Origin: Hysterangium stoloniferum
Lineage: Eukaryota > Basidiomycota > Agaricomycetes > Hysterangiales > Hysterangiaceae
Reading direction: 5' to 3'
Assembly (NCBI GenBank): GCA_015178975.1
Contig: WHVD01000004.1
Span: forward strand, 1,178,001 to 1,242,000
DNA: 64,000 nucleotides
In this document: positions 2,548 to 60,614 of the stretch, in pieces
Numbering within the stretch: the stretch's first letter is position 1
Layout: every line of letters starts with the position of its first letter
The notes under the pieces: generated by a model
The model's database searches: none
Seen by the model: only the letters and a program-made list of their open reading frames with translations
What the model was told of the DNA's origin: nothing
Translations under genes and position numbers: made by a program

Positions 2548-3320
2548 TGTGAGGCTGGGGAACTTAGATGATTAGCTAAGTCCAAGAGTTGCTGACAAAG
2601 ATTCAAGATGCTGCAAGTGTAGGTGCTTGCAGTGAGTGTATCAGACTAAGGCTATTATTGTCCTTAGGATGATTAGATAAGCTGGTGCTGTGCTGCAAAT
2701 ATGTGAGAGATAGATTGGTTTTATTGGAAACTTGGCCCTCCTTATATACATTTTGATAACTCAATGATTAGCTAACTATTTAGTTTATGAGGTCATTAGT
2801 GAGATCATAATGACCTCATATTCTACTCATTATTTACCCTTTGTCTATCATGTGATTCTCTTCTCTGAGACAAGGGTTGCTTGAACATGAAGGTTCAAGG
2901 CCACGGTCCCGGGACGGAAGCAAACAATGAGTCGGCGGAATCTAATAATGACTCGGGTAGTCACGCTCGTGACTTGTGTGACTCGGGTAGTCACATTCGT
3001 GACCTTTGTGACATCCCGACACCGGAGGCTTATGTAATAGGTCACATGACTCCAAAAATGCGCAAACTGGGCTGCAGCAAGGTGCCGAAAGGTAATAACT
3101 AAGTAAATAAAATATAAATAATTAGTTAAAAATTATAATAAATTAACTAAGATATAATAGCATAATATGAGTTCATATATGCTATTATTATGTGAAGTTA
3201 AAAGGAATAGAGCCTATTTTTCACAATAAAAATATAATAAAAATACAATAAATTCGAGAAAATATTAATAAATTCAAAGAAAATCAAGAGAAAATTATGA
3301 GATAAAGCTGATACCTCACA
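2548..3320 (-). mobile_element. Probable LTR, family C-like
   Basis: The segment starts TGTGAGGCTGG and ends ACCTCACA, giving short inverted termini. On the minus strand it has a TATA-like ATGTATATAAGG. It abuts a polypurine-like tract at 3321-3335, as a 3' LTR should. It contains a duplicated motif around GACTCGGGTAGTCAC (2950-3010). The left boundary is uncertain; the right one is supported by the adjacent internal sequence. Confidence 0.5.
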
Positions 3321-3540
3321 GTACCCTCCCTTTATGCCGAAGTCCCAAAGAAGCTCTAGACCTCAATAAGGTTCTTGTTGGCTATGTGCATGTGTCAAAA
3401 GTCATGTCAGTTACATGTATGTGTCAAAGAGTCATGTGATCTGGAAGGTAAGGTTCAGATGCGATGAGCCTATATAAAAATTTGGAAAAAATGAAATTTC
3501 TTCTTCTTTACTTCCCCCATCTTGGTGACACCATGGTTAA
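3321..3540 (-). mobile_element. 3' internal fragment of a chromovirus related to the one at 50,735
   Basis: The plus strand here is about 85-90 percent identical by eye to the reverse complement of 58,470-58,678, the segment between the antisense gene and the 3' LTR of the chromovirus. It keeps the polypurine tract (3321-3335), the paired GTGTCAAA...GTCATGT repeats (3392-3440) and the TATATAAA box (about 3471). Most differences are C to T or G to A at CG sites. It stops near 3530-3540, where a family E LTR end begins. Confidence 0.75.
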
Positions 3541-37630: not shown

Positions 37631-39792
37631 CGGTCTATTGGTATTGGCACTAATAGATGATTGGTCCTATCTTTGAACTCGTATCCCTTTATCAAGCACT
37701 CATAAGGTTAGATTGGATGAGATTTCGGAGTGGACCAATCGAGTGAGAACCGTGCTTCGGCCTGGCGGTTTCTGGGTATAACGGAGTACGAATAACTCTC
37801 AAACTTAAATATGCACCAACGGTAAGTTTATAGTGTAAATTATTTGACACCAAGAGAAAGGTTGATTCGATAGGATGGTTTAATCTGCTAGTCAAAATCC
37901 ATATACATCAAATCTATTATAGGGACTCGGAATAATCGACTCGGAATTCGAGAGTTTTCCACGCGAGAATAAACTGGCAAGGAGTAGCAAGACAAACGTC
38001 GGTGTGCCCTAACTAATGTCCCAGAGCGTACAAGCTCTTAAAACAATGAGTCCGAAGCTTCTGTATACAGCGGCCCCGGCACTCCAACAAAAGGCTTGTC
38101 ACTGATTCACTCTCGCTCCCATCCGGAAGATTCCACACAGGGTCCTCCCAAAGATTCTCATAGAAGCTATGCCTCTTCAGTCTTCAGGGGACTCCATAGA
38201 TCCCGATGATCGACATAAACTGGTCACTTCTTTCTCTCCCCAAGTGGCACGAAGTTGTACAGCGAACTCCACCACCTCCAGTCTGCGATTTTTCTGGATC
38301 AGCCCCATTCTCTCTTGCATGAAGATGACTCTAATATGACAAGTAACTCATTTACGCTCCGGATTAATGTTGCAGTGTCATGCCACTCTGTCATCGGTTT
38401 TAATTAATTGTCGATGCTATTCCAAAAGTATTTCTTCATTACATAAAGGCTGGCGCATTCGCTGTCCTGATTTTCCAAAGCGTCGATGGTACAGCCTTCT
38501 CCCTGAATTTCGTACAATGTGCACCATTTTGGCTCTGCAGCAAAGTACTAAGTAGAAGTCAAATGTCTATGTGGTTAGACTTTAGATTGACACCGAACTC
38601 AAGCTCTATAATACGTGGGTGATCTAAGATTAGGATTAAAAGGGACTATTCATACAGAAAATACACCAATGGTCGTCGGCAAATTATCCATATAGTACTT
38701 ATGATACGTTGCAATCAATGGGAATGGCTCAGCGACACGGATCCAACTGCTCCTGCATCAGTAAAATTGTTTTTAGTCCGGAAGACTCCGTGAGGGGTCC
38801 ATGCAGAGGGACTCTCAGTTCACTGAGAAAGAAAAAACGTAATTATATAAGAAGGAAGCGACCATATTAGGCCGGGACGGTGAGGATGCGAAAGTTGGTC
38901 TCAATACTATACATTTGTAGTGTCGGAAGTCACAGGAAGAGGACGAATAGAGAACAACACGACCTATATTCTCCAATAACAGTCCCACCCTGCCATAATG
39001 CCTGTGAGTATCATAATCGTATAGGATCCCTAATCTCACACGGTATCGCTATTACCGAATCAAGAGGCGCTACCCGGAATGACAGGGGTGAGCCTTGAAC
39101 GGGTGGGTACTCGTGGAGGCTGATTGCAGGCATCCTCGCCTAAGTCAGGTATCATACCAATAGTTGGCGAAGAATTGAAGATTGTGTATCGCACTCCCAG
39201 CAATAGAGTCTTCTCGAACGGTATAGACATGTCAGGGATAGGAGTACCTCTAACTTGGGGTGTGTAGTACGTACAGAAAGAATATCGGAACGCTCGGCTT
39301 GAACACTGATGTGACATCTACCACTCCTCAAAGGATTGGGGAGAGGTATCATGATGCCACGCTACTAATGCGAGATATGGGATAGGCGGACCAGCGATCG
39401 GTTATTTTCTTTTTGCAAGAGAAAGTGAGTGCTCTTAGGATGAGGTATGCTTTATCGTTGTCGGCTCCCCTAAGCTAGGTAGTTTTGAGAGCACCAATTA
39501 TCGCTAGGTGCCTTTAAAAAAAATAATAGTGGGAGGTGAATGAACTTCAGGTGCAGTCGTGTAGATAAATGCTGTCTAACAAAGAGTCAATACTTTATAG
39601 AGTATTAATAGTACTTAGTGCGGGGGGATCTCATATTGTACTTACTATTGTTTGCTTAACCATGTGCAGATCTAATCACGGGGTGGGGCGGTGGTGTAAT
39701 GTGACCGGACGTGACTTTTAGCGTTGTGATTTGTGTCTGGTTCTGCTTCGGTTCTCCTTCTTTAGGTCTTCCTTTCTTTCTTTCGTTCCGTC
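37631..39792. other. Intergenic region
   Basis: About 2.2 kb with only short, motif-free open frames on both strands. I see no repeat family shared with the flanking transposon blocks. The last 100 bp, pyrimidine-rich (TTTCTTTCTTTCG), form the likely core promoter and 5' UTR of the gene at 39,793. Confidence 0.45.
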
Positions 39793-41598
39793 ATGGAGGT
39801 CTTCGAGCAACCCCAATGCTCAGCATCGTTTGACACTACGCCCCGTCCAATGTCAGCCCTTCCGCGTCTTCAACAAGGCCAGGATCCTCAACTTCCTTAT
39901 GCACCAGCGCGTACTCCCCATAATTACGCGGCACTCGTCTTCTCTGGCTCTATTGGAACCTTCCTCGTCGCAGTCCTAGCCTATGTCTGGTACAGGAGCT
40001 ATCGTTTGAAGGCCAGAGAGAGACGAAGAATTCGCGCCGCGCTCGAACGCATCAAAGCTAAGCAGGCGGCGAATGGACAGGGTCGTGTCCCGCGCACAGT
40101 AGCGGCGTTGAGGGCGTTGCGAGAGTGTATTGGGCGTATTTTAGCAATGTTGGAATCTCTATGGGTTCGTGAAGTCGACGATCGCGTCCCAGTGTCCGAG
40201 GGGAAGAACCGGCCAGACCCCTCCCCGCTTGCTGACGATGCAAAATCGAAAAGAAAGCGGACGAAAGAGAAGGTTAAGCGTGTCAAAACTCGCCCCACAG
40301 GCTCTACACAAGCAGCGCCCTCGAAAATCCAGAAGCCGTTGACGGTCTCTGATCGTGACGTAGATAATTCTCCCGCCGTAGCACCATTGTCCTCAACTAT
40401 CCCGACATTCACTACTGCCCCCGTCACTGATGCCGAGTCACGATCGGATAACTCTGAAGAGACGATCCACTCGGTAGAGTTCCTCAAAGTTTCGGAAGAA
40501 CATCCTCCGTCCTTGGCGTTTACGGTGTCTACGCCTCAACCCTCATTAATATCGATTGATACGCCGAAAGACGTGGACGATACCCCTAGAATACCGCAAC
40601 CATCCACTCTTATTCCCTCTCCAAATATGTCACTACCAGCTTCTCCTATGAAAGATCCGGTCACAATCCCTGTTCTCCACTCTCTTTGTCCCTCCCCAAC
40701 CCCGTCTCTCAGTTCATGTGGTTCGCTTTCTCATGGACGCCTGAGTCGCTCAGCATCCGTCTCCTCTATTACAGCTTCATCCACCGCAGCACCTGTAACA
40801 CCACCTTCTCGTTTAGTCTCTTTACCGGTTAAATACGAGCTTCGAGAAAGCTGGGATTCCGAACACGTGCCAGACGACTCCGCATGGGATTGGGACGGTC
40901 AGCGCTCACTTCACACCGTAGACAATTCCAGACATCCCGTGCGGCATCCTGTTGCCGACTCCACACCTTCATTACTTCTGACCCCCGATTTGCCAGCTGT
41001 GGTTTTCCCCTCACTCAATGGACCGCCGCCAGCGCCTACTGGATCTAGTTCTTCCTCTCAAATACTAAGCCTCAAATCTGCAGTGAAAATGGGCAAGCAA
41101 CGTGAAATGAGGCACCGTTGCGAGGTGGAGGCTTTGATCAAGCAGCGGGATTTCGCGAACTGGCGATTTCATCAGGCGCAAGAAGCCTTCCAGCGTCGTG
41201 AAAGAGAGCTACAGGCGGAGATATCTCGTCTTGCAATGCAGTTGCAAGGATATGCCATCCAGTCACCGCAGTTCATACAGCCGCCTCAGTTCCCGCCTGG
41301 ACAGCAGTTTCCTCTGTATTACTCCGGCCCAACCTCACCGTATCCCCACGCATCTCCATTCTTGTATCCATATCCCTCGCCACAATCGCCGGTCATGAAT
41401 GAGATAGGTGTCAGCGATAAGCTTGCCGAGGCTATCTTGAGGCACCCGGAAAGTATTCGGTCGTCTACGTCTAATTCTACGAAAAACGAAGAACGTGAGG
41501 ACGTATCCAGCTCATCTCAGTCACAGGGTTCTGGGGAGGCATCGCCAATACATCGTGGTAGTCCGTGTTCTGATGCTATTGAATTGGTTAGTGTCTAA
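39793..41598 (+). CDS. Single-pass membrane protein with disordered middle and coiled coil, function unknown
   Basis: One uninterrupted frame of 601 codons. Residues about 45-67 (YAALVFSGSIGTFLVAVLAYVWY) form one membrane span, directly followed by the basic stretch RLKARERRRIRAALERIKAK, so the long C-terminal part should face the cytosol. The middle (about 130-410) is Ser/Pro/Thr-rich and disordered, with a basic patch KSKRKRTKEKVKRVK near 155. Near residues 430-480, KQREMRHRCEVEALIKQRDF and following residues look like a coiled coil; then comes a Pro/Gln/Tyr-rich stretch (QFIQPPQFPPGQQF). I do not recognise the family. The start is the first ATG, with CGTCATGG context. Confidence 0.8.
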   Translation: MEVFEQPQCSASFDTTPRPMSALPRLQQGQDPQLPYAPARTPHNYAALVFSGSIGTFLVAVLAYVWYRSYRLKARERRRIRAALERIKAKQAANGQGRVPRTVAALRALRECIGRILAMLESLWVREVDDRVPVSEGKNRPDPSPLADDAKSKRKRTKEKVKRVKTRPTGSTQAAPSKIQKPLTVSDRDVDNSPAVAPLSSTIPTFTTAPVTDAESRSDNSEETIHSVEFLKVSEEHPPSLAFTVSTPQPSLISIDTPKDVDDTPRIPQPSTLIPSPNMSLPASPMKDPVTIPVLHSLCPSPTPSLSSCGSLSHGRLSRSASVSSITASSTAAPVTPPSRLVSLPVKYELRESWDSEHVPDDSAWDWDGQRSLHTVDNSRHPVRHPVADSTPSLLLTPDLPAVVFPSLNGPPPAPTGSSSSSQILSLKSAVKMGKQREMRHRCEVEALIKQRDFANWRFHQAQEAFQRRERELQAEISRLAMQLQGYAIQSPQFIQPPQFPPGQQFPLYYSGPTSPYPHASPFLYPYPSPQSPVMNEIGVSDKLAEAILRHPESIRSSTSNSTKNEEREDVSSSSQSQGSGEASPIHRGSPCSDAIELVSV

Positions 41599-44291: not shown

Positions 44292-46668
44292 ATGAGCACC
44301 GTAACCAACCCCACTATGCTCTCTTTATCTTTTAGCTACTTGTGAGTTGCATGTTCCTCTTCTATGTCCACCACTTACACTATTATAGGCTGCAAGGTGT
44401 CCTGCTTGTGCAGGTTAGTGGATATCCTTGTAGTGTCAAAGAGTTGACGTTCAACCGCCGCGCTGTGCTGTCTATCCTAGACCATAAACTATGCTATACG
44501 TTCGTGGCGCATTGATGCGCTGGGAACCAGAACAATCGTCTCCCTCGTATTTGTTCTATCATTTGCACACTCTCTACTGCTACTTCTTTCCGTGGTATGT
44601 CTCATTAGAAAGATATTGTATCATAGCTCATGGCTCAACGCTCTCCAGTCTTTGAATGTCGCGCGACTCTCTGCAGCTTCTACATTAGCTGCGCAATGTC
44701 TCTCAGTTGCTGCACTATATTTCTTCGCACTGTACGTTCTTCGGTATATCACTCAGCTGTTGAAATGACAAAACATATCCCCCGCAGTCGCGTCTATCAT
44801 GTACGATTTTTGGCCGAGTTCCACCATAGAATTTCAACTTACTCATGTTCTTTAGCTCCCATGGCGTTACGAATTTCTCTTTCTTCCTCTGGTCTTCCTT
44901 CTCATCGGGTCGGTCGGCACTGCAGTCGGATCCGTGAGTATTTTTAGAAAACTTAGCTTGGTTCTAGAATTAATTCGAATTTTACAGTTCTTGGCGACCC
45001 CTGAGAGTGATATCGTGGGTCATGATAAACTTGATTTTTGTATCCATCCTAAATATTCGCATCATATATAGTCCCACAAACTGGGTAGATATTATCGTTA
45101 TCGACTGCAAACATCTACTCATACTTCTGTCTAGTTATTGTGTCTGCAGTGTTTCCCTTCCTTCTGAGCGCATGGTCTACAGGTTGCAGTACGTTTTATT
45201 GTTAATTCTAGCTACCAGGCCTCCCTTTAACGCACTCACCCCATATTAGTCCTCGGATATCATCTATCCGTACCCAAATCCATCAAACAGACACCTGTAC
45301 CGCGTCCTCATCTTATCTTACACACCGCACTCCCGGGTACTCTGCTTCTCCTCTTAACGTTAATCGGTGCTGTGGTCGCTTCTGAACTTAACGCAGTTGC
45401 TGTCCAGGTCGCCGGATACGTTCAGGCGATATGTGCGCTATGGGTTTTGGAGAAGTACGATTCCCTTCTTGGAGCCTTATCTTTTTTTTTCTCATTTGCT
45501 TTTCTATTCTTCCTTTTAGTCGTCCGCTTCGAAACATAGGCGGCGAGACGAACCCAGAGATTGACGCACCACGGATCCTAAAAGACCTGTTATGGACACG
45601 TATCCGTAGACCTGCCTCCCCCGCTACTGTAAGTTCCATGGCTTACTTCACGAATCTCTATGGACTCTCTTAACAGATTCCACGTCGCGTTACGTTGTTA
45701 CCGCTTCATATGGGGAGTATGGGCAGTCAGGATGTAGCATTAGCCCCGGTTACGGGCTCTGATAAATCATTTTGGGTTGGTATCGCAGATTAGAAATTTC
45801 AAATGAAAGCTGACATTATGCATAGTTTTCTCATGCATTTGCATTGACCAACGACGAGCATTCGGATATCAAATCCCCCATACCACTGGGGGCTGATCCG
45901 TTCTCTAGACCAGGTATAAGCTCGTCGCCTGCCAGCCGCGGGCCTTCATTGGACAGGTCACATTCAACTAAAAGTGTGCACTTGGCGAAAAGTCTCCCAC
46001 GCGAGAAGATGACCGAATCCGCGAAATCGATAGACGCTCGGTCAATAAAAAGCATTCCACGCTCGGTCAAGAGTGTCTATTCGACCGTGGATTCCATTTC
46101 CCCCGTTGGTTCGATACCCATTGCTCTGGCGGCAGACGTAGATGGCGAAGTGGAAACTACCATGTCGCATGACGGCCACTCCACTGCCGCTGATTCGCAT
46201 TCATCTCCCTCGCCGTCACACGGTTTGTTCGTATCGATCCCTATCTCGTCACCCGCGGCTGTGTATGTCTCTCCGGGTGCCAGGCCATCGTCTGTCGGCC
46301 CGTCGGTACATACCGTCCAAGTAACCCCACGACCTGGAACCCCGACCATCCCTCCCACACCCCGTAGATCTGCCAGTAGATCTACCAGCACACAAAGGTC
46401 ACTGTTACCAGTCACCCCTCGCTCTGCTACTTTCAATGTACCATCACCAGCACGCTCTTCACCAGCATCATCTGGACGCTCACACACCTCAACCACATCT
46501 TCTCTCCCCAAACGCGCTCCACTGCCAGCTTCATTCGCCCGTCTACCTCCTACGCCTCATGCCCGCTCTGGCTCCGGTTTGACGTTTATGCCGCCTGGAC
46601 TTTATGACCCACGAGAATTTCAGGCCATCCGGGGAAAGAGAGAAGGCAGTGATGGTGAGGCAGTATAA
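44292..46668 (+). CDS. Multipass membrane protein (six to seven spans) with disordered tail
   Basis: Twelve exons: 44292-44341, 44389-44413, 44481-44731, 44788-44800, 44856-44933, 44988-45014, 45072-45084, 45135-45182, 45250-45454, 45520-45628, 45677-45775, 45826-46668. They total 1761 nt, 586 residues. Every junction is GT-AG and the frame is kept; two exons are only 13 nt. Hydrophobic segments: SYLLQGVLLVQ, IVSLVFVLSFAHSLLLLLSV, STLAAQCLSVAALYFFAL, YEFLFLPLVFLLIGSVGTA, KLVIVSAVFPFLLSAWSTV, LILHTALPGTLLLLLTLIGA and AVQVAGYVQAICALWVL. After about residue 300 the chain is Ser/Pro/Thr-rich. The layout recalls the basidiomycete seven-span proteins of the DUF6534 kind, but this is only a resemblance. 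Function unknown. Because so many short exons are involved, an alternative start is possible. Confidence 0.75.
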
Positions 46669-50390: not shown

Positions 50391-50734
50391 TGTTACGACC
50401 ATGTTGCAACCCGACAGTCTCTGAGGTTATCACCTCCTATTGACGATTCAAGTCATCGTTCAAGTCCTCACATCAGAAACTGTTGGTTTCCTGATGCTGA
50501 CGTATGCCTTCGCAGTGATCAAACTCCATTTATGCCCACGTTAAAATATACTTGTACTATCTGGTTAAACTCTGATATGTCCCTTTTATTATGATGATCT
50601 GTTCTACTCTATGTTTCACATATGTCTATATATACTTGTAACCCTCAGACTATTTCCTTTTCTCGTAATTCCGCTCTCGGTTATTTCATGGCCTCTGAAC
50701 TAATCATAACCTTCCCGTTCCTAGTCAAGCTTAT
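50391..50734 (+). mobile_element. Family A LTR, 5' fragment
   Basis: First 344 bp of a family A LTR, from TGTTACGACCATG, preceded by CATGT. It ends abruptly where the chromovirus begins at 50,735. The remaining LTR part does not resume in the same orientation on the other side. Confidence 0.85.
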
Positions 50735-51195
50735 TGTTACGACCGGGCAAATCCCGCCGGACTCCGGGCACTAACTCGTACGCCCCCACGCGCTACAAGC
50801 ACCAATCGTCTGTTTATAGGATTTCCCGCCCGGACTCCGTTACGTCAAGACTTGTTACGTTCGACCTCATTAAGACACATATCAGTCACCGGACTTCCCC
50901 CGGACCCCGTCTCTGTCTATGTCCGTCTTCGTCCCACGCATCAGTCACCGGACCCGCTTAGAATCCCGTCACCGCTCTAATCGAGCCCCGTTCCCGTTTT
51001 AGTCAAATGACCTGTCACGATTTAGGATTCCGCTCCCGCTCCGTTTCCCGTTATGGGTTATGCTGTGTCACGATTCGGACTCCGCTCCGTTCCGTCCCAT
51101 TCCTAACACCAATTTGGTGTTTACTATTCCCGTTCTATGTTTTGCTCGTTTCGTCTCATTATTACTGGATTCGGTATGTCATGCATTCCACGGTC

Positions 51196-51203
51196 TATAT
51201 AAA
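51196..51203 (+). promoter_or_regulatory. TATA box of the 5' LTR
   Basis: TATATAAA, 33 bp upstream of the AGTCAGAAAAT that is the predicted 5' end of the element RNA. The same box is present in the 3' LTR (about 59,142). Confidence 0.7.
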
Positions 51204-51364
51204 CTGGCAGATGTTGTACATACAATCCAGTCAGAAAATTAGCTTAGATTCCCCCCAGTAATCTAATACATTTTCCTCTCTAAAACCCTACTCTTATCAG
51301 ACCGCTCGCACTAGTCGGAGCCCACGGGCTCCGGCGCATCTATCTCTCTCGACTATCTCGATTC

Positions 51365-52050
51365 ACGACTCTCGACTCACGACTCTCGACTCACGACTCT
51401 CGACTCACGACTCTCGACTCACGACTCTCGACTCACGACTCTCGACTCACGACTCTCGACTCACGACTCTCGACTCACGACTCTCGACTCACGACTCTCG
51501 ACTCACGACTCTCGACTCACGACTCTCGACTCACGACTCTCGACTCACGACTCTCGACTCACGACTCTCGACTCACGACTCTCGACTCACGACTCTCGAC
51601 TCACGACTCGACTCGACTCTCGACTCACGACTCTCGACTCACGACTCTCGACTCACGACTCTCGACTCACGACTCTCGACTCACGACTCTCGACTCACGA
51701 CTCTCGACTCACGACTCTCGACTCACGACTCTCGACTCACGACTCTCGACTCACGACTCTCGACTCACGACTCTCGACTCACGACTCTCGACTCACGACT
51801 CTCGACTCACGACTCTCGACTCACGACTCTCGACTCACGACTCTCGACTCACGACTCTCGACTCACGACTCTCGACTCACGACTCTCGACTCACGACTCT
51901 CGACTCACGACTCTCGACTCACGACTCTCGACTCACGACTCTCGACTCACGACTCTCGACTCACGACTCTCGACTCACGACTCTCGACTCACGACTCTCG
52001 ACTCACGACTCTCGACTCACGACTCTCGACTCACGACTCTCGACTCACGA
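51365..52050 (+). repeat. Minisatellite, 14-bp unit CTCGACTCACGACT, about 49 copies
   Basis: Nearly perfect head-to-tail copies with one irregular unit near 51,605. The 3' LTR has only about one to two units at the same place (about 59,305-59,335). Expanded after, or during, the formation of this copy. Confidence 0.97.
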
Positions 52051-52223
52051 CCTACGACTCACGACCCACGAACCCCCGCCCGGACTCCCCGGGATTCCCG
52101 TCCGCCTGTCTGAAATTGGACAACACGATCTAGCGAGAGCGCAGCCTATAAGCTGAAGCCAAGTCCTACCGGATATCCCGCGGGTTTCTCCAGAAACCCG
52201 GCCTGAGTGTGTATCCTAACAGT

Positions 52224-52234
52224 ATTTTCTGACT
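52224..52234 (+). promoter_or_regulatory. Primer binding site of self-priming type
   Basis: ATTTTCTGACT starts two bases after the 5' LTR and is the exact complement of AGTCAGAAAAT at 51,229-51,239 in the LTR, which sits where transcription should begin. Tf1-type elements prime with their own first 11 nt in this way. I saw no obvious tRNA complement. Confidence 0.7.
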
Positions 52235-52257
52235 AATACTCGCAGATTGTTTTCATT

Positions 52258-53550
52258 ATGCCACCAAGAAGAAGTACACGCGCACAGTCATCAATGCCTG
52301 GACCGTCGACTCTTCATTCCCCGTTAACTCTGTATACCAGTCAGACGCTTGCGAACCAGTCGGAACCCATGGAAGAAGCCCGCATCGAAGAAATCCCGGA
52401 AGACCTGGACGAATCCGAGCGCGAGGACGATTCCGTGGCCCCCGACAAGGGCAAAGGTGTCGAAATCCCTCCTGAAAATCCTCCGCCTTTTCAACGACCA
52501 AACACGAGGGATCCTACTTCTGAGTTTTTAGCAGGTACTATAGATAAATTCATGACGCACCTGCTAGAAGAACGAAAAAGAAAGGAACAAGAACCTCCAC
52601 GGTCAAAAGTCAATGCTCCGGAACCCTTCACGGGTTCCAACCCAAACAAACTCTCTACTTTCCTCATGCAATGTCGCTTCAATTTCCGCGATCGCGCCGC
52701 TGCATTCTCCACGGACTCCCGAAAAGTCAACTACGCACTTTCATATTTGTCGGGATCCGCGTTGAAATGGTTCGAACCGGCTTTTAGCGGGATTACCGAG
52801 GAAGAGCCGCTCTGGCTTGAAAATTGGGAAGCTTTTGTTGAGGAGCTTGAAACCAACTTCGGCCCGTATGACCTGACAGGAGAAGCCGAGAATAGTCTCA
52901 CAAATCTTTGTATGAAGGACACGCAGCGCATCACGGACTACATCGTCCAATTCAATAATCTTGCAGCTCGTTGTCAGTGGGGCGATCCCGCTCTCCGCCA
53001 CCAATTCTACGCCGGTCTGCCGTCCCGCCTTAAAGACGAAGTCTCAAAAGGAGAAGATGGCAAGCCAAAAACCCTGTCCCGTATGCGCCTCAAAGCTCAA
53101 AACGCGGACGCACGTTATTGGGAACGTCGCGCGGAAGTTGCCCGCGAGACATCCGCGGACAAAATAAATAAGTCCAAGGACAAAAACAATAACACCAATT
53201 CGTCAACCAGCAACCAGAACTCCACGCAATCCGACAAGAAGAACGATAAAAAGTCTTCAAACAACAACAACAACAATAAGGACAATAAGGACAACAACAA
53301 GGGTCAACAGTCCGGCAAGCAAGCCGGAAAACCCGACCTCTCAGGCAAACTCGGACCTGATGGCAAATTGACTCCACAAGAAAGACAACGTCGTATGGAC
53401 AACAACCTCTGTCTCTTGTGCGGGAAACCCGGTCATCGAGTCCCGGAATGTCCACTGGCAAAAGCAAACTCTTCAAAGGGTCGATCAGCCAAGGCCTCCA
53501 CGGAAACCCCGTCGAAGGACAAACCGGCTGCCGATTCGAAAAAAGAGTAA
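52258..53550 (+). mobile_element. gag region of the chromovirus
   Basis: About 430 codons from an ATG just after the leader. The N-terminal third is acidic and disordered. A capsid-like segment (around ALSYLSGSALKWFEPAF) follows, then an Asn/Lys-rich linker and one CCHC zinc knuckle (CLLCGKPGHRVPEC) near the C-terminus. It overlaps the start of pol in another frame, as is usual for families that use frameshifting. Fossil element part. Confidence 0.85.
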
Positions 53551-56500
53551 GCAACCCCGCGGGCTCCGCGCGGGTTAGGGGTTGCGTTGCCTCTCCGCGC
53601 ATTCAAGAGTTCACTCGCCTCAACGCATCCGCTCTTTCACATTCTGATTCATTTTTCGTTAAACTTATGTCTAATATGCTTCTGAAATTCGTTTTTTCAG
53701 CTCTCATAGATTCCGGCTCGACTCATTGTTTTTTAGATACAAAATTCATGCAAAAAAATTCTTTGTCAACTTATTCGATAAATCCCGTCGCTCTCCGCCT
53801 CTTCGATGGCACAAGTAATTCAGTTGTTACCCAAGCTTGTGATTTACCCATCAGTTTCCCTTGTGGAACATCTCAATTGGTCACTTTCTATGTGACCCAG
53901 TTAGACTCAAGTTGCTCGGTGGTTCTAGGACATAACTGGCTTACCCGCTACAATCCGTTGATTGACTGGATAGCTAACAGTATAACATTCCGAACTCCCA
54001 CGGCGACCGAGGAAACTGCGCCTGTCTCGGCCTCCACGGCACCCATGGCCTTCCCGGCACCTGCAGTCTCGAGGACTCCTGTGATCCCTACGGCACCTAC
54101 AGCTTCCCCGGAACCCACGGCACCTCCGTCCATTTCTCTGATTAATGCTGCAGCTTTTATTAGGGCTTCAAAAATGGATGGGTCCCAGGCGTTCACTATC
54201 AACTTAAAAATTGATGAAGCAACTGGACATTTCTCAACCCCAGTATCCGAATCTGAGCAAGCTGCTGACCTAGAAGGCGTCCCGGAGAAATACCATGACT
54301 TCGCGGATGTTTTTAGCAAGCGAAAAGCTGACCGGCTTCCGCCTCACAGAGAATACGACTTAAAAATCGATCTTGAAGATGGCGCCCAGCCACCCCTAGG
54401 ACATATTTACCCGCTTTCGTCCACGGAACTATCCGCAATCCGTGATTTCCTGGATGAACATTTGTCCATAGGTTTTATTCGACCCTCAAAGTCTCCTTTT
54501 GGAGCACCTGTTTTGTTTGTCAGAAAAAAGGATGGATCCCTTCGACTATGTGTTGATTTTAGAGGTCTCAATGCTGTCACCAAAAAGGACAAATATCCAC
54601 TCCCACTTATATCTGACCTGCTCGATGCTCCGCGGAATGCCCGGATTTACACCAAAATAGATCTCAAGCATGCCTATCATTTGGTCCGGATTGCCGTGGG
54701 CGATGAATGGAAAACCACTTTTAGAACCCGCTATGGGGCCTTCGAGTGGTTGGTCATCCCTTTTGGACTCACTAATGCCCCATCTGTTTTTCAGCGTTTT
54801 ATCAACGACATTTTCTCCGACATGCTCGATGTATGCGTCATTGTTTACTTGGACGACATTCTTATCTACTCCGAGAATCCCACGGAACACGACAAACAAG
54901 TCCGTGAGGTTCTCCGGAGGCTCAGACAACATGGTTTATTCGCAAATGGTAAAAAAATGTACTTTTGACACGGACTCCGTGGAATACCTAGGTTTCATGA
55001 TGGGACCCGATGGACTCCGCATGGACGAAACTAAAGTGCAAGTCATCAAAGACTTGGCCCGAACCCCGAAAAGTTAAAGATATCCAATCCTTCCTCGGCT
55101 TTGCCAATTTTTATCAGACGTTTTATCTGTGGATATTCCGACATCACGGTACCCCTTACCCGTCTTACGCGTAAGGGTACTCCGGTGGAACTTTAATGAT
55201 AAGTGTCAAAAAGCTTTCAATCTTTTAAAAAATTCTTTTTCCACAGCTCCTATTCTGTCGCATTGGAAACCGGACTTCCCGCTCATTGTTGAAACGGACG
55301 CCTCCGACTATGCACTTGGAGCCATTCTCTCTATCCAGGACTCCGACGGAGAAGTCCACCCCGTGGCTTTTCTGTCCCGGATTTTTACCGGAGCAGAGCT
55401 CAACTACGACGTTCATGATAAAGAACTTCTGGCAATCTTTTCAGCTTTCAAAGCGTGGTGACACTATTTGGAAGGTTCAGGAGCTCCTATTGACGTTGTA
55501 ACAGATCACAAAAACCTGGAATACTTTTCTACCACAAAACTCTTGACCCGTCGGCAGGCCCGCTGGTCTGAATATCTCTCCGCCTTCAACATGATTATCC
55601 GTTTTTGACCCGGCCGTCTCGGCGGCAAACCCGACGCTTTAACTAGACGATGGGACATCTATCCTAAAGAGGGGAGCAACGACTATGCAACGGTAAATCC
55701 GCACAACCTGAAACCTATTTTCACGAATCAACAACTTACCGCATCGGTCCGCGCAACTTTCCTCGTCAATCCCATTGTCCGTGGAATTATCATTATGGAT
55801 ATCGAGAAGTTACATCAAGATATTCTATCGGCAATTCCGCTAGACCCAGTTACTAAAGCTCATCTGGACAATCCCGTGGACCCTGATCAACCTCGGTGGT
55901 CCCTTGATCAACATGGTTTCATTAGACTTGATGATCGTATCTATGTACCGGACTCCGACGGCCTCCGCCTCAGGATCCTTCAATACAAACATGATCATCC
56001 ACTCTCAGGACATTTCGGGTACAACAAAACTCTATCATTAATAAGAAGAGAATATACTTGGCCCGGACTCCGTGGATTCGTTAAGCACTATTGTAAATCT
56101 TGCACTACTTGTCCCCACTTGAAATCTCAGCGACACAAGCCATACGGCCTTTTGAAACAACTCCCGGTACCGGAACACCCGTGGAATTCTATATCTATGG
56201 ATTTCATTGAACACCTACCGGATTCCGAAGGCTTTTCCGCTATTCTAGTTGTTGTTGACAGATTCTCAAAACAAGGTATATTCATCCCTACTTATGATAC
56301 AATTATGTCCGTGCAGTTAGCGGAACTTTTCATTATCCACGTATTTTCCAAGCACGGAGTTCCATCCCACGTGACTTCTGATAGAGGATCAGAGTTCGTG
56401 TCTCACTTCTTTAGATCCCTCGGAAAATCCTTGGACATGACATTACATTTCACGTCCGGACATCACCCGGAAGGTGACGGACAAACCAAACGCGTCAACC

Positions 56501-57278
56501 AGACATTGGAACAATACCTCCGCGTATATTGCAACTATCAACAGGACAATTGGAAAACCTTGTTACCACTTGCAGAGTTTGCTTACAAAAATGCACCCTC
56601 GGCCACTACTGGCGTTTCCCCGTTCTTTGCAAATAAAGGATATAATCCAAACATTACAGTACATCCAGAACGAAATCTCGCCTCTGTTCGTGCTCAAGAG
56701 TTCACCACGGACCTCCACGAGCTCCACGAGGAACTCCGGACTGCAATACTGTCCACCAAGAGCAATACCAACATTCAGCGGACAAACACCGGATCCCACC
56801 ACCAAACTTCAAGATTGGCGACCGTGTTTATGTCAAAGCTCAATTCTTCCGGACTACCCGTCCATCAAAGAAGCTTGCTGAAAAATATTTAGGTCCGTTT
56901 GAAATTATCGCACAAGTAGGTTCAGTTTCTTGGACTCTACGACTTCCGGATAGCATGCGTGCGGTACACCCGGTATTTCATGTCTCTATGCTAGAACCTT
57001 GTACTGCTAACACTATCCCGGATCGCATGCAATCTCCACCTCCTCCTGTCGTCATTGACGGAGAACCCGAGTTTGAAATCTCGCAGATTTTAGATTCAAA
57101 AATTGACAAGTGTCGACGCACTTGTAAACTGCTTTACTTGGTCAAGTGGGTGGGTTACGAGGGCACCGATGAAGAAACCTCATGGATTTTGGCCACGGAA
57201 CTCGGTAATGCCACGGAAATCGTTACTGACTTTCATACAGCTTACCCACTCAAACCTGGACCATTATCGTCTCTCTGA
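53551..57278 (+). mobile_element. pol region of the chromovirus, broken
   Basis: In order: aspartic protease (IDSGSTHCF), reverse transcriptase (VYLDDILIYS), RNase H (VETDASDYALGA), integrase with an HHCC zinc domain and a DDE core (SMDFIEHLP, TSDRGSEFVS), and a C-terminal chromodomain (LVKWVGYEGTDEETSWI, about 57,110-57,200). The region is disrupted several times and is treated as a fossil. Confidence 0.9.
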
Positions 57279-57476
57279 CCACACTCCGCGGACCCCGTGT
57301 TACGTTTGGACTCATTTTCACTATTCCCTGTCGCCCTATGTCTCTCTTTGCTTTTACAGGTTCTGACATGTCAAGTCAAGTCTTTAAGCGGACTCTCCGC
57401 GGACTTTGGCTTTGACTTTTATTTTTATGTTTTCTTTCACGCTTTACTTTTATGATTCAATTATTTTTATTCTATA

Positions 57477-58469
57477 CTACTTTTTCAGTCTACATTTATG
57501 GGACTGCTCTTTTTTCCCTGCTTCCTCAGCTATCTCCTCTGGGAGCTCCGCGACCTCCGCGGCAACCCCGTCCTCATCCGATCCGGCATCCTCGGAACTC
57601 CCGACTTGTGGCTCCTTATAGACATAGCCGCCATACTCCGCCAGGAACTTCCAAAACTCCTCGTGGAGTCTGGACAGCTCCTTTGCCACCACAATTTGGA
57701 CCTTGTTGCTCTTCCGGAGCAACTCGTTTTGGGCCTCGATGCCCTCGGCGATCCGTCCAAGAACCTCGTCCAACCTGGACAACCCGTCCGTCCCGCTTAT
57801 GTCTCGCGCCCCAGATCCCGTGGCCTGCTTGTGCACAAGCGAGCACCTCACCTTGAGGTGTGCACATTGGTAACATCCCGGCCCCCGGCCGGCCTTTCGG
57901 TTGCATTCCATGTTCCGGTCGTTGCAACCGGAACACCGCGGCTCGTTCCACGTTGGAAGACGGACTGGCGCCGCCTTCCTTGCCTTCTGTTGATATGGTC
58001 AGTTTCCGTGGGTATTCCATGGACATGAGGCCTACCTTTTGGGGGCTCTCTGGCTCCCCCTCAGACTCCGACTCCACCTCTGTCGCTTTGCGCTGAAAAT
58101 CACAAGTCAGTAAAAGTCGACAAGTTGAATATTGGGACTTACCTTTCCCGCAACAATGGCGGCCCTCTCCACGGCCAACTGGGCTTTCTCCGCAGCCACC
58201 CGGGTGTTCTCCACGGCCACTCGCGCAGCCTCCTCCGCCTCACGTTCCCTCTCCTTTGCGGCCTCTTCCTCCGCGGCCAATGCTTCCTGGTACTCTCTGT
58301 CCAGGGCCTCCTCAGCCTCCCTCGCCTCTCTCTCTGCTGCTTCACGAAGCTGGCGCTGCTCTTCTCGCCGCGCCAACAATTGGGCCGCCGTCCACGGCGC
58401 CCGATACGGAGTGCCTGTGGAGGGCCCTGCTGTCGGCATTGGCTTGCGTGGTGTTGGTTTTGGTCCCAT
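57477..58469 (-). CDS. Antisense Zn(II)2Cys6 coiled-coil protein gene carried by the chromovirus
   Basis: On the strand opposite to gag-pol, between the chromodomain and the 3' LTR. It has three exons with two introns of about 50 bp (GT-AG, with CTGAC branch-like sequences), and the frame is open throughout, about 297 residues. Residues about 35-105 are a charged Ala/Glu/Arg coiled coil. Cysteines at about 146, 149, 156, 166, 169 and 176 give C-x2-C-x6-C-x9-C-x2-C-x6-C, exactly the fungal zinc-cluster pattern (CSGCNDRNMEC ... CYQCAHLKVRC). A second helical stretch follows (LDEVLGRIAEGIEAQNELL). The tail is acidic and ends KCRLKK. Zinc-cluster proteins bind DNA as transcription regulators; that role here is inference. 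The gene has its own TATA box and repeated upstream motifs. A spurious antisense frame is unlikely, given the exact cysteine spacing and clean splice sites. Confidence 0.8.
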
Positions 58470-58520
58470 GTTGACGAAGATGGGGGTAATGAAGAAGAAG
58501 AAATTTCTATTTTTCAATTT

Positions 58521-58625
58521 TTTATATAGGCTCGTCGCGTTTGAACCTTACCTTCCAGATCACATGACTCTTTGACACATACGTGTAACCGACATGACTT
58601 TTGACACATGCGCGTAGCCGACAAG
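58521..58625 (-). promoter_or_regulatory. Promoter region of the antisense gene
   Basis: On the minus strand, TATATAAA at 58,522-58,529 lies about 55 bp upstream of the ATG. Further upstream are two copies, about 28 bp apart, of a GTGTCAAA(A/G)AGTCATGT-like motif (about 58,560-58,615). The same arrangement is kept in the older relative at 3321-3540. Confidence 0.6.
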
Positions 58626-58665
58626 AACCTTATTTAGGTCTAGAGCCTCTTTGGGACTTCGGCAT

Positions 58666-58675
58666 AAAGGGAGGA
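58666..58675 (+). promoter_or_regulatory. Polypurine tract of the chromovirus
   Basis: AAAGGGAGGA ends three bases before the 3' LTR. It is the expected primer site for second-strand synthesis in LTR elements. Confidence 0.75.
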
Positions 58676-58678
58676 TAC

Positions 58679-59498
58679 TGTTACAACCGGACAAATCCCG
58701 CTGGACTCCGGGCACTAACTCGTACGCCCCCATGCGCTACAAGCACCAATCGTCTGTTTATAGGATTTCCCGCCCGGACTCCGTTACGTCAAGACTCGTT
58801 ACGTTCGACCTCATTAAGACACATATCAGTCACCAGACTTCCCCCGGACTCCATCTCTGTCTATGTCCGTCTTCGTCCCATGCATCAGTCACCGGAACCT
58901 GCTTAGAATCACGTCACCACTCTAATCGAGCCCCGTTCCCATTTTAGTCAAATGACCTGTCACGATTTAGGACTCCGCTCCCACTCCGTTTCCCGTTATG
59001 GGTTATGCTTTGTCACGATTCGGACTCCGCTCCGTTCCGTCCCATTCCTAACACCAATTTGGTGTTTACTATTCCCGTTTTATGTTTTGCTCATTTCGTC
59101 TCATTATTACTGGATTCGGTATGTCATGCATTCCACGGTCTATATAAACTGGCAGATGTTGTACATACAATCCAGTCAGAAAATTAGCTTAGATTCCCCC
59201 CAGTAATCTAATACATTTTCCTCTCTAAAACCCTACTCTTATCAGACCGCTCGCACTAGTCGGAGCCCACGGGCTCCGGCGCATCTATCTCTCTCGACTA
59301 TCTCAATTCACGACTCTCGACTCACGACCTACGACTCACGACCCACGAACCCCCGCCCGGACTCCCCGGGATTCCCGTCCGCCTGTCTGAAATTGGACAA
59401 CACGATCTAGCGAGGGCGCAGCCTATAAGCTGAAGCCAAGTCCTACCGGATATTCCGCGGGTTTCTCCAGAAACCCGCCCTGTGTGTGTATCCTAACA
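58679..59498 (+). repeat. 3' LTR of the chromovirus, 820 bp
   Basis: TGTTACAACCGGA to TATCCTAACA, collinear with the 5' LTR except for the 14-bp array. The length agrees with the old solo copy at 1188-2032 (845 bp). Confidence 0.95.
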
Positions 59499-60614
59499 AC
59501 TATGAGAGTTGTTTAGGAGTGTTCTGAGTTGATAATCTGATTGCTTTGTAGCTACATTACAGTTGGACTTAAATACTAGTTATCAGCATCTCGAAATACT
59601 AACTAAGGTAAGAGCGGGAATGTACAATTAGTGACAAATAAACTTTACTAGGAACTGGAAGGTTACAATAAGATCAGAAGCTGTGATTAACTGAGAGTGG
59701 AATTACGAGAAAAGGGAATAGTCCAAGAGCTACAAGTATATACGGGTATATGTGAAACATAGAGTAGAACAGATCCTCATAGATAAAAGGGGATGTATCA
59801 AAGCATAACCAGATGATACAAGTATAACTTGACAGGGTGTGAGAGGTATGGTGAAATACACTCAGGAAATATAGTCAGATGAGCTCTTACTATATCTCCT
59901 TTATTATTTCTATTTTCTCTCTTTTATTATATCTATAATTAGTTCGACGACCTATGTATGCGGTACATCGACTCTTGTGGGTGCACACGCAGACTTATGT
60001 ATTCTAGTGCCCGTAGTTTAGAACTCAGACACTTTTTACACCGCAACCACGACTTACCCAGACACCCATTAGTGTCCTGTAAGTTGTGATTGGTGTATCA
60101 TCTCGACCGTCACAGATGGGCTTTAGCTATCTACTCTATCAGAGTTTCGAACTGTACCAGTTGAAACTCAATCCTCATCGCTACTCGCGTGGACCACATC
60201 CACGCTATTCTACTATTCGACTCTCTAGTACTTTACTTTACTCTCGAGCAGTTGTTCAGAATCGCACTAGACAGTCGATTCTACTTATTCGTTTTAGCTC
60301 TCTATCTTACTCTAGATAGCTACTTCCTTCTACCGTATTGAACTGAGTAGTCAATACGCGTTCGTTCTGTATTAGACTTTGACAGTCAATACATCTTGGT
60401 GTCGTACCTAAACGGTCGATATTCTTCATATATAGAACGGCTAGAACTTCCACCACTCTTCACACAGGGGTGTAAAAGGGGTTTGATCGCCATGAAGGTA
60501 TATGTCAGTGTTGGTGTACTGACGGTTGCCGATATGATGACTTGGCCAATAACTTGAAATGCAGGCAGACAATAGTGTCATCAGGGACCATCAGGTTGCG
60601 ACACAGTCATAACA
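59499..60614 (-). mobile_element. Family A LTR, 3'-truncated, in reverse orientation, split by a solo LTR
   Basis: Matches about 345-819 of the copy at 87-819, in the same (minus) orientation, and ends GTCATAACA at 60,614. The missing terminal part is replaced by the chromovirus. It is interrupted by the solo LTR at 59,838-60,464. Confidence 0.8.
59838..60464 (+). mobile_element. Solo LTR, family C2, with 5-bp target duplication CAGGG
   Basis: 627 bp from TGTGAGAGGTATGG to CACTCTTCACA, flanked by CAGGG at 59,833-59,837 and 60,465-60,469. The termini form imperfect inverted repeats. It keeps many CG sites, so it is younger than the surrounding family A LTR. Strand chosen arbitrarily. Confidence 0.85.

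Follow-up and report, generated by a model that had tools for sequence, protein, structure and literature searches.

An antisense gene encoding a zinc-cluster-like protein in chromoviruses of Hysterangium stoloniferum, a candidate regulator of element transcription

The 64,000-nucleotide stretch of Hysterangium stoloniferum DNA analyzed here (contig WHVD01000004.1, positions 1,178,001 to 1,242,000; hereafter the window) contains a chromovirus, on whose antisense strand an initial annotation had placed an intact zinc-cluster gene with a promoter of its own. This raises the question of whether the retrotransposon owns a gene for a putative DNA-binding protein and, if so, what such a protein might do for the element. 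The carrier, the gene and their parts are laid out as follows, in coordinates of the window:

50735-59498, + strand: Ty3/gypsy chromovirus carrying the antisense gene
50735-52221, + strand: 5′ LTR, which contains an expanded 14-bp tandem array; excluding this array, identity to the 3′ LTR is 96%
52237-53550, + strand: gag frame (PF03732 Retrotrans_gag, 3.7e-13; PF19259 Ty3_capsid, 1.3e-7)
53361-57278, + strand: pol (protease, RT, RNase H, integrase, chromodomain), broken into several frames in the window copy
58679-59498, + strand: 3′ LTR, with a polypurine-rich stretch directly 5′ of it
57477-58469, - strand: coding span of the antisense gene, three exons, 297 codons, ATG at 58469
58469-58143, - strand: exon 1
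58142-58093, - strand: intron 1, 50 nt, GTAAGT..CAG
58092-58036, - strand: exon 2
58035-57987, - strand: intron 2, 49 nt, GTAGGC..CAG
57986-57477, - strand: exon 3
57466-57471, - strand: AATAAA immediately past the antisense stop
58528-58521, - strand: TATA box TATATAAA, from the sequence
58609-58592 and 58580-58562, - strand: paired upstream motif ATGTGTCAAA(A/GA)GTCATGT, from the sequence
3318-3536, + strand: older fragment, promoter block through ATG only, 90% identity
58143-58382, - strand: first coiled-coil-like Glu/Ala/Arg-rich stretch, in exon 1 (coiled coil inferred from composition)
57975-58041, - strand: basic QK/KARK patch across the exon 2/3 junction, with the intron between (from the sequence)
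57843-57935, - strand: zinc-cluster-like motif C-x2-C-x6-C-x9-C-x2-C-x6-C (dN/dS 0.09; weak PDB profile matches)
57621-57788, - strand: second helix, residues 71-126 of the exon 3 ORF (AlphaFold2, pLDDT mostly 77-95, 61 at the end)

The three-exon antisense gene is thus present as the initial annotation had drawn it, and its product contains one exact copy of the cysteine pattern. It does lie on the strand opposite gag-pol; it does not lie over gag or pol, and occupies instead the 1.4-kb spacer between the pol stop at 57278 and the 3′ LTR at 58679. The sense pol of the window copy is indeed broken, because its domain matches are spread over several frames: PF08284, PF00078, PF17919, PF17921 and PF00665 fall in separate pol frames, with PF24626 and PF00385 in the last one. 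The last 140 pol codons are without stop or gap in 17 of 20 aligned pol tails, the window's included.

Several further features of the carrier and its surroundings deserve a record. The 14-bp array (about 50 units, 51300-52050) distinguishes the 5′ LTR from the element's 3′ LTR, where it is not expanded. No clear target-site duplication was found in the printed flanks of the element; just outside the LTRs it is bracketed by an 84% inverted repeat (50581-50683 and 59688-59790), which suggests either insertion into another repeat or rearrangement involving it. Just 3′ of the pol stop, at about 57328-57367, the block CCCTATGTCTCTCTTTGCTTTTACAGGTTCTGACATG is nearly invariant in 20 aligned copies and looks, from its letters, like a putative sense-strand 3′ splice site. 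Other chromovirus copies in the same genome have an extra sense-strand ORF after pol (L079, 1206-1799, - strand; L081, 242-724, + strand). These two ORFs have YRR.LH..G.R.PYAPDDPV in common and find no Pfam match at E<=5, and by eye the cysteine pattern is absent from the 12 listed ORFs of at least 90 aa in the chromovirus copies L079-L081.

Within the searched genome (111 Mb, 554 contigs) the antisense gene is a standing part of the retrotransposon and not a one-off capture. Genome-wide, the pattern of the exon 1/intron 1 junction is matched 320 times and that of the promoter core 634 times (up to 2 mismatches), with 0 for the reversed control in both cases; these figures count matches and are not to be read as the share of elements equipped with the gene. 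A DNA search returned 899 candidates, the best 40 of which all stand at 92-100%, while a protein search with exon 3 returned 1391, the best 150 being 76-100% identical and about 108 of these 150, by a hand count, free of stops. For the alignment, 40 copies were picked by us along the ranking of those 150 exon 3 rows and not at random; the alignment (A1) comprises 41 copies, and the 5′-truncated L047 is excluded from the counts made on it, which brings these to 40.

Intron donors are GT in 39/40 copies for intron 1 and 40/40 for intron 2, and the acceptors of both introns are AG in 40/40; 22 of the 40 copies are open from the ATG to within 13 codons of the end. Intron lengths range over 35-64 nt (intron 1) and 47-52 nt (intron 2) regardless of multiples of three. 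Indels relative to the window are multiples of three in 20/29 cases in exon 1, 0/1 in exon 2 and 7/7 in exon 3 up to position 57520; the corresponding figures for introns 1 and 2 are 4/71 and 2/12. The final 43 bases of exon 3 have a multiple of three in only 1 of 66 indels, an effect of the reference, since the final residues of the window copy (...GKKEQSHKCRLKK) are read in a different frame from that of the family. The sequence SPI(N/E)(V/I)D is found near the C-terminal end in 29/40 copies, the other 11 being the window and 10 frame-shifted copies. The earlier description of a clean frame with clean splice sites therefore stands for the splice signals, which are conserved, but not for the last residues of the window copy. 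In L100-L102, which have unusual frames, the introns are by eye still present, with altered length. A search for retrocopies with spliced junctions gave 0 matches for both junction patterns, against 320 unspliced ones, a result that neither proves nor disproves transcription.

The substitutions among these copies show purifying selection on the predicted antisense protein. We calculated Nei-Gojobori mean dN/dS over 20 open copies (A2), using only pairs with dS >0.05, which are not independent of one another; of the 41 copies, 21 are excluded from this set, 19 because their antisense frame is not open, and L059 and L068 because they nearly duplicate other open copies. The ratio is not near 1 but 0.23 for the whole gene (180 of 190 pairs used), 0.25, 0.17 and 0.22 for exons 1-3 (175, 172 and 179 pairs) and 0.09 for the cysteine region (164 pairs). 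For the final 140 codons of pol in these copies the value is 0.19 (172 pairs), and the pooled pN/pS values are 0.26 for the gene, 0.12 for the zinc region and 0.20 for pol. Hence, within the subfamily the constraint on the antisense gene is comparable to that on pol (0.23 vs 0.19), whereas between subfamilies, as described below, the gene diverges far more than pol.

The other two same-strand frames of exon 3 have dN/dS values of 1.66 and 1.18. On the sense strand two frames stand at 1.4-1.5 and the third, which shares third positions with the gene, at 0.28; because of this last value, dN/dS alone cannot fix the strand, and we dropped it as proof of strand, which rests instead on stops, splice sites and cysteines. 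Every one of the 22 open copies shows 2-4 stops in that third sense frame across exon 3. By codon position, variable sites amount to 62% at position 3 and 30-32% at positions 1 and 2. Furthermore, the N/S ratio is 0.89 for variants common to at least 4 of 34 copies vs 1.77 for singletons (Fisher p = 4e-4; 34 of the 40 copies, with six near-duplicates at 98.5% or more removed). Since N/S is lower for shared than for singleton variants, the low dN/dS is not only a matter of CpG decay; the contrast is weaker for transversions alone (p = 0.07).

Upstream of the ATG, the block 58619-58543 is the best-conserved part measured, with a mean pairwise identity of 0.971 vs 0.856-0.924 in the exons and 0.817-0.859 in the introns, and with 12% of its sites varying vs 49-59% in the introns. 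By eye, either TATATAAA or TATATATAA is present in all A1 rows except L047. The polypurine/LTR-edge motif further upstream is seen in 37 of all 41 A1 rows, with L061 and L062 one base off and L047 and L069 without it. The initial annotation had held that the TATA box and the paired motifs are also kept in an older related fragment, and we located this fragment at 3318-3536, 90% identical to the window copy. It begins near the polypurine/LTR edge, retains both motif copies, the TATA box and the leader, and stops at the antisense ATG; past it lies unrelated sequence with a short open frame (MVKDTDSG...), and no significant protein matches were found near it. It could be a stray promoter able to drive downstream sequence or a simple truncation.

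A search for the promoter motif (one spacing, up to 3 mismatches) found no copy in the LTRs and matched just the promoter and the old fragment, both exactly. We also considered CGG-N3-CCG pairs as target sites and dropped them: the pairs are enriched in the LTR, and because gag-pol is enriched as well they single out no target.

A sister subfamily, comprising L082, L084, L086 and further L087 and L088, has the gene at the same place (search with L082, the best 150 of 395 candidates scored). The three-exon plan was read by eye in L082, and the frames of L084, L087 and L088 are consistent with it; in L089 exon 2 is not readable. We rejected the candidacy of C553, the contig of L082, as a distant chromovirus family with the same gene: the neighboring chromodomain is only 28% identical to that of the window and probably belongs to another element, for which reason the sister subfamily is described from L084 and L086. 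L086 and the window are 84% identical in the pol tail, whereas exon 3 of the sister subfamily is only 28-34% identical to the window's, and BLASTP of the sister against the window's exon 3 yields a solid alignment for the cysteine part alone (49 residues, 37%).

The sister cysteines are spaced C-x2-C-x6-C-x10-C-x2-C-x6-C. The expectation that related elements conserve the pattern is borne out in alignment A4, where the six cysteines and one lysine are invariant in 13/13 rows that range from 28 to 94% identity to the window; A4 leaves out 11 of the 22 rows of A3 and adds two new loci, the last part of L088 is read in a shifted frame, and in L040, one of the omitted rows, Arg replaces the second Cys. 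The L086-L087 pair has a dN of 0.25 and a dS of about 2 (ratio 0.13), by which measure the predicted sister gene is old and constrained; the ratio of 0.91 for L084-L086 reflects few changes in a pair too close for a useful value. The sister keeps a single related upstream motif, (A/G)TGTGTCA.A..TCATGTGAC, in a comparison (A6, seven rows) that rests on the window and four sister rows, since L041 is cut short and L056 is misplaced inside the gene. The pol and antisense stops are 35 bp apart in L084 (1228-1264) and 95 bp in L086 (1995-2091); therefore, the 3′ ends would probably overlap if both strands were transcribed.

What kind of protein does the gene encode? The QK/KARK patch resembles what we take to be a monopartite nuclear-import motif, and the sister reads K/KQK or K/RQK at the same exon 2/3 junction. 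The second helix spans 56 residues, with high AlphaFold2 confidence over most of its length; in the cysteine region AlphaFold2 places two short helices after the CxxC pairs at low confidence (pLDDT about 60), and Foldseek against the PDB returned 0 matches. The spacing typical of Zn_clus, C-x2-C-x6-C-x(5-12)-C-x2-C-x(6-8)-C, is found in 13/13 A4 rows. The Pfam Zn_clus profile (PF00172) search suggested at the outset yielded nothing above threshold: exon 3 of the window has no match at E<=1, L041 and L053 score 11.7 and 11.0 bits against a gathering score of 21, and L084 and L087 have no match. Formal membership in Zn_clus thus fails. The A4 profile against all PDB sequences gave six weak matches (E 0.49-8.4), the top five of which (E 0.49-4.2) are LEU3 twice, LAC9, SPBC27B12.11c and Pho7, which we take to be Zn2Cys6 zinc-cluster domains; a single-sequence PDB search gave three weak matches, none of them a zinc cluster. 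Alignment by hhalign to ten Zn_clus domains of the same genome reached a probability of 69.5. Host Zn_clus matches are tightly clustered at C56:27459-28077, 39173-39800 and 44795-45410 and at C115:74483-75050.

In Zn_clus a strongly basic first cysteine triplet contacts DNA. Counting K/R in the first triplet here gives 0-1 for the window subfamily and 3 for the sister, a mean of 1.5 against the 3.6 averaged by the 8 of 10 host Zn_clus domains that have all six Cys; the second triplet has 2 in the window subfamily and 1 in the sister, and the sole invariant basic residue in A4 is a lysine in the second triplet. By residue count, then, the strongly basic first triplet of Zn_clus is absent. We also tried and rejected a zinc cluster of swapped polarity. 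The similarity sums of the second triplet (-0.58 against the canonical first, -5.01 against the canonical second) point toward it, but the K/R counts fit it in one subfamily alone, running 0-1 then 2 in the window's and, contrary to it, 3 then 1 in the sister. Thus, the antisense protein is like the fungal Zn2Cys6 factors in its cysteine spacing, the helix that follows and a weak profile similarity, but differs from them in lying below the Pfam cut-off and in its first triplet; we describe it as zinc-cluster-like in spacing and setting, and not as a Zn_clus member by the formal test.

We lean, by a slight preference, toward an accessory gene owned by the element, whose product regulates element transcription. 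The promoter would lie inside the element, adjoining the 3′ LTR and read away from it, and the transcript would lose its two introns of about 50 nt to encode a protein of about 295 aa (297 in the window). From its N terminus, this protein would have a coiled coil, a basic patch of nuclear-import type, a cluster resembling Zn2Cys6 and another long helix, and might enter the nucleus, dimerize and bind zinc and DNA. There, it would regulate transcription of the element, most likely through feedback on the antisense promoter or that of the LTR; any effects on the host would be secondary.

The same architecture would also suit a protein whose task is not transcriptional, such as a cofactor for nuclear import, nucleic-acid chaperoning or integration targeting that uses zinc and coiled coils without a specific DNA site. 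The coiled coils, basic patch and zinc-cluster-like motif fit such a role, as do the missing DNA-contacting basic triplet and the lack of a target site found in the LTR, and import of the pre-integration complex is named as a possible role of such genes in the accessible part of PMC7264820. However, a conserved antisense promoter of its own is more in keeping with a regulator produced independently of Gag-Pol, and what similarity the profiles show, weak as it is, points to zinc clusters that bind DNA; we regard a cofactor as unlikely, if worth serious attention. The contrast between a pol tail 84% identical across subfamilies and an exon 3 at 28-34% could alternatively be read as the outcome of an arms race, with a host-facing factor that evades defense or counters silencing diverging rapidly between sisters. 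Yet, the low dN/dS inside each lineage (0.23 and 0.13) bears no sign of positive selection, which leaves this quite improbable.

The superior conservation of the promoter block might mean that the antisense transcript itself is functional, through interference or double-stranded RNA, with the frame being incidental; effects of antisense RNA are described for retroviruses and retrotransposons in the accessible parts of PMC7264820 and PMC10186651. Against this, codon-level selection, conserved cysteines and in-frame exon indels point to a protein, so that RNA as the sole function is largely refuted and to our minds very unlikely. It is still harder to credit that the element captured a zinc-cluster gene from its host and merely transports it: the genome does have conventional Zn_clus genes (42 matches), but the ten host domains examined are not closely similar, and the gene is seen as constrained, diverged copies in two subfamilies under persistent purifying selection. 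Finally, a chance open frame or a misread sense strand might be invoked, given that in 13/22 copies exon 3 is free of stops in one of the sense frames. But over the whole gene that frame is open in 1/22 and closed in 21/22, the other two are closed in 22/22, and the splice sites and cysteines are conserved, making this explanation negligible.

An antisense gene owned by the element has company. The accessible part of PMC7264820 lists genes in this position, antisense and between pol and the 3′ LTR, for Grande (gene23), RIRE2, Retand and PvRetro13 of plants and for Boty of Botrytis. The initial annotation's statement that it knew of no description of such a gene was therefore too strong as regards placement, antisense accessory genes at this position being known from the accessible text of PMC7264820 and PMC8365987. 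Grande gene23 of maize and RIRE2 likewise have the gene antisense between pol and the 3′ LTR with a promoter upstream, and the gene23 product is nuclear; these are, however, plant elements, for whose products the review records no clear similarity to other proteins and for which the accessible part of the source mentions no zinc cluster (PMC7264820). The Retand antisense ORFs occupy the same location, encode TRP28 in 97% of clusters and are predicted to bind DNA, with a regulatory role proposed; unlike the present gene they belong to a plant, non-chromovirus lineage with a spacer of 2.9-6.6 kb vs 1.4 kb here, and have TRP28 instead of a zinc cluster, the word “zinc” being absent from the accessible main text (PMC11963269). 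Boty, with brtn in Botrytis cinerea, is also a fungal chromodomain element with an extra antisense gene, as described in the accessible portions of PMC8365987, PMC4227169 and PMC7264820.

Outside retrotransposons, the hbz gene of HTLV-1 and other deltaretroviral antisense genes offer a functional parallel for which we claim no homology: hbz produces a spliced mRNA for a nuclear regulator that lowers viral expression, but its promoter lies in the 3′ LTR and its product is a bZIP protein and not a zinc cluster, as the accessible part of PMC10186651 has it. We can also conceive of a bolder form of the regulator proposal, in which fungal chromoviruses possess subfamily-specific, non-canonical zinc-cluster regulators, each recognizing its own element while pol stays nearly constant, and providing feedback or immunity in the manner of a phage repressor, as a fungal parallel of HTLV HBZ; this is speculative and, on present indications, rather unlikely.

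Among the titles and abstract openings that our searches of open-access literature listed, we recognized none that describes a retrotransposon with a zinc-cluster antisense gene, and the terms “antisense” and “zinc” do not occur in the accessible part of a survey of fungal LTR elements (PMC3248453). Hence, as far as open-access titles and abstracts show, the placement is known and the zinc-cluster-like product is new among antisense accessory genes. The function of these genes is called unknown in the accessible parts of PMC7264820 and PMC11963269; a recognizable signature, in the form of a zinc-cluster-like motif between two helices, together with hundreds of copies and a conserved promoter, makes their role testable. 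If the regulation of the element by its own antisense product holds true, fungal mobile elements may carry and spread their own transcription factors, a means of controlling the element or its host that has received little study.
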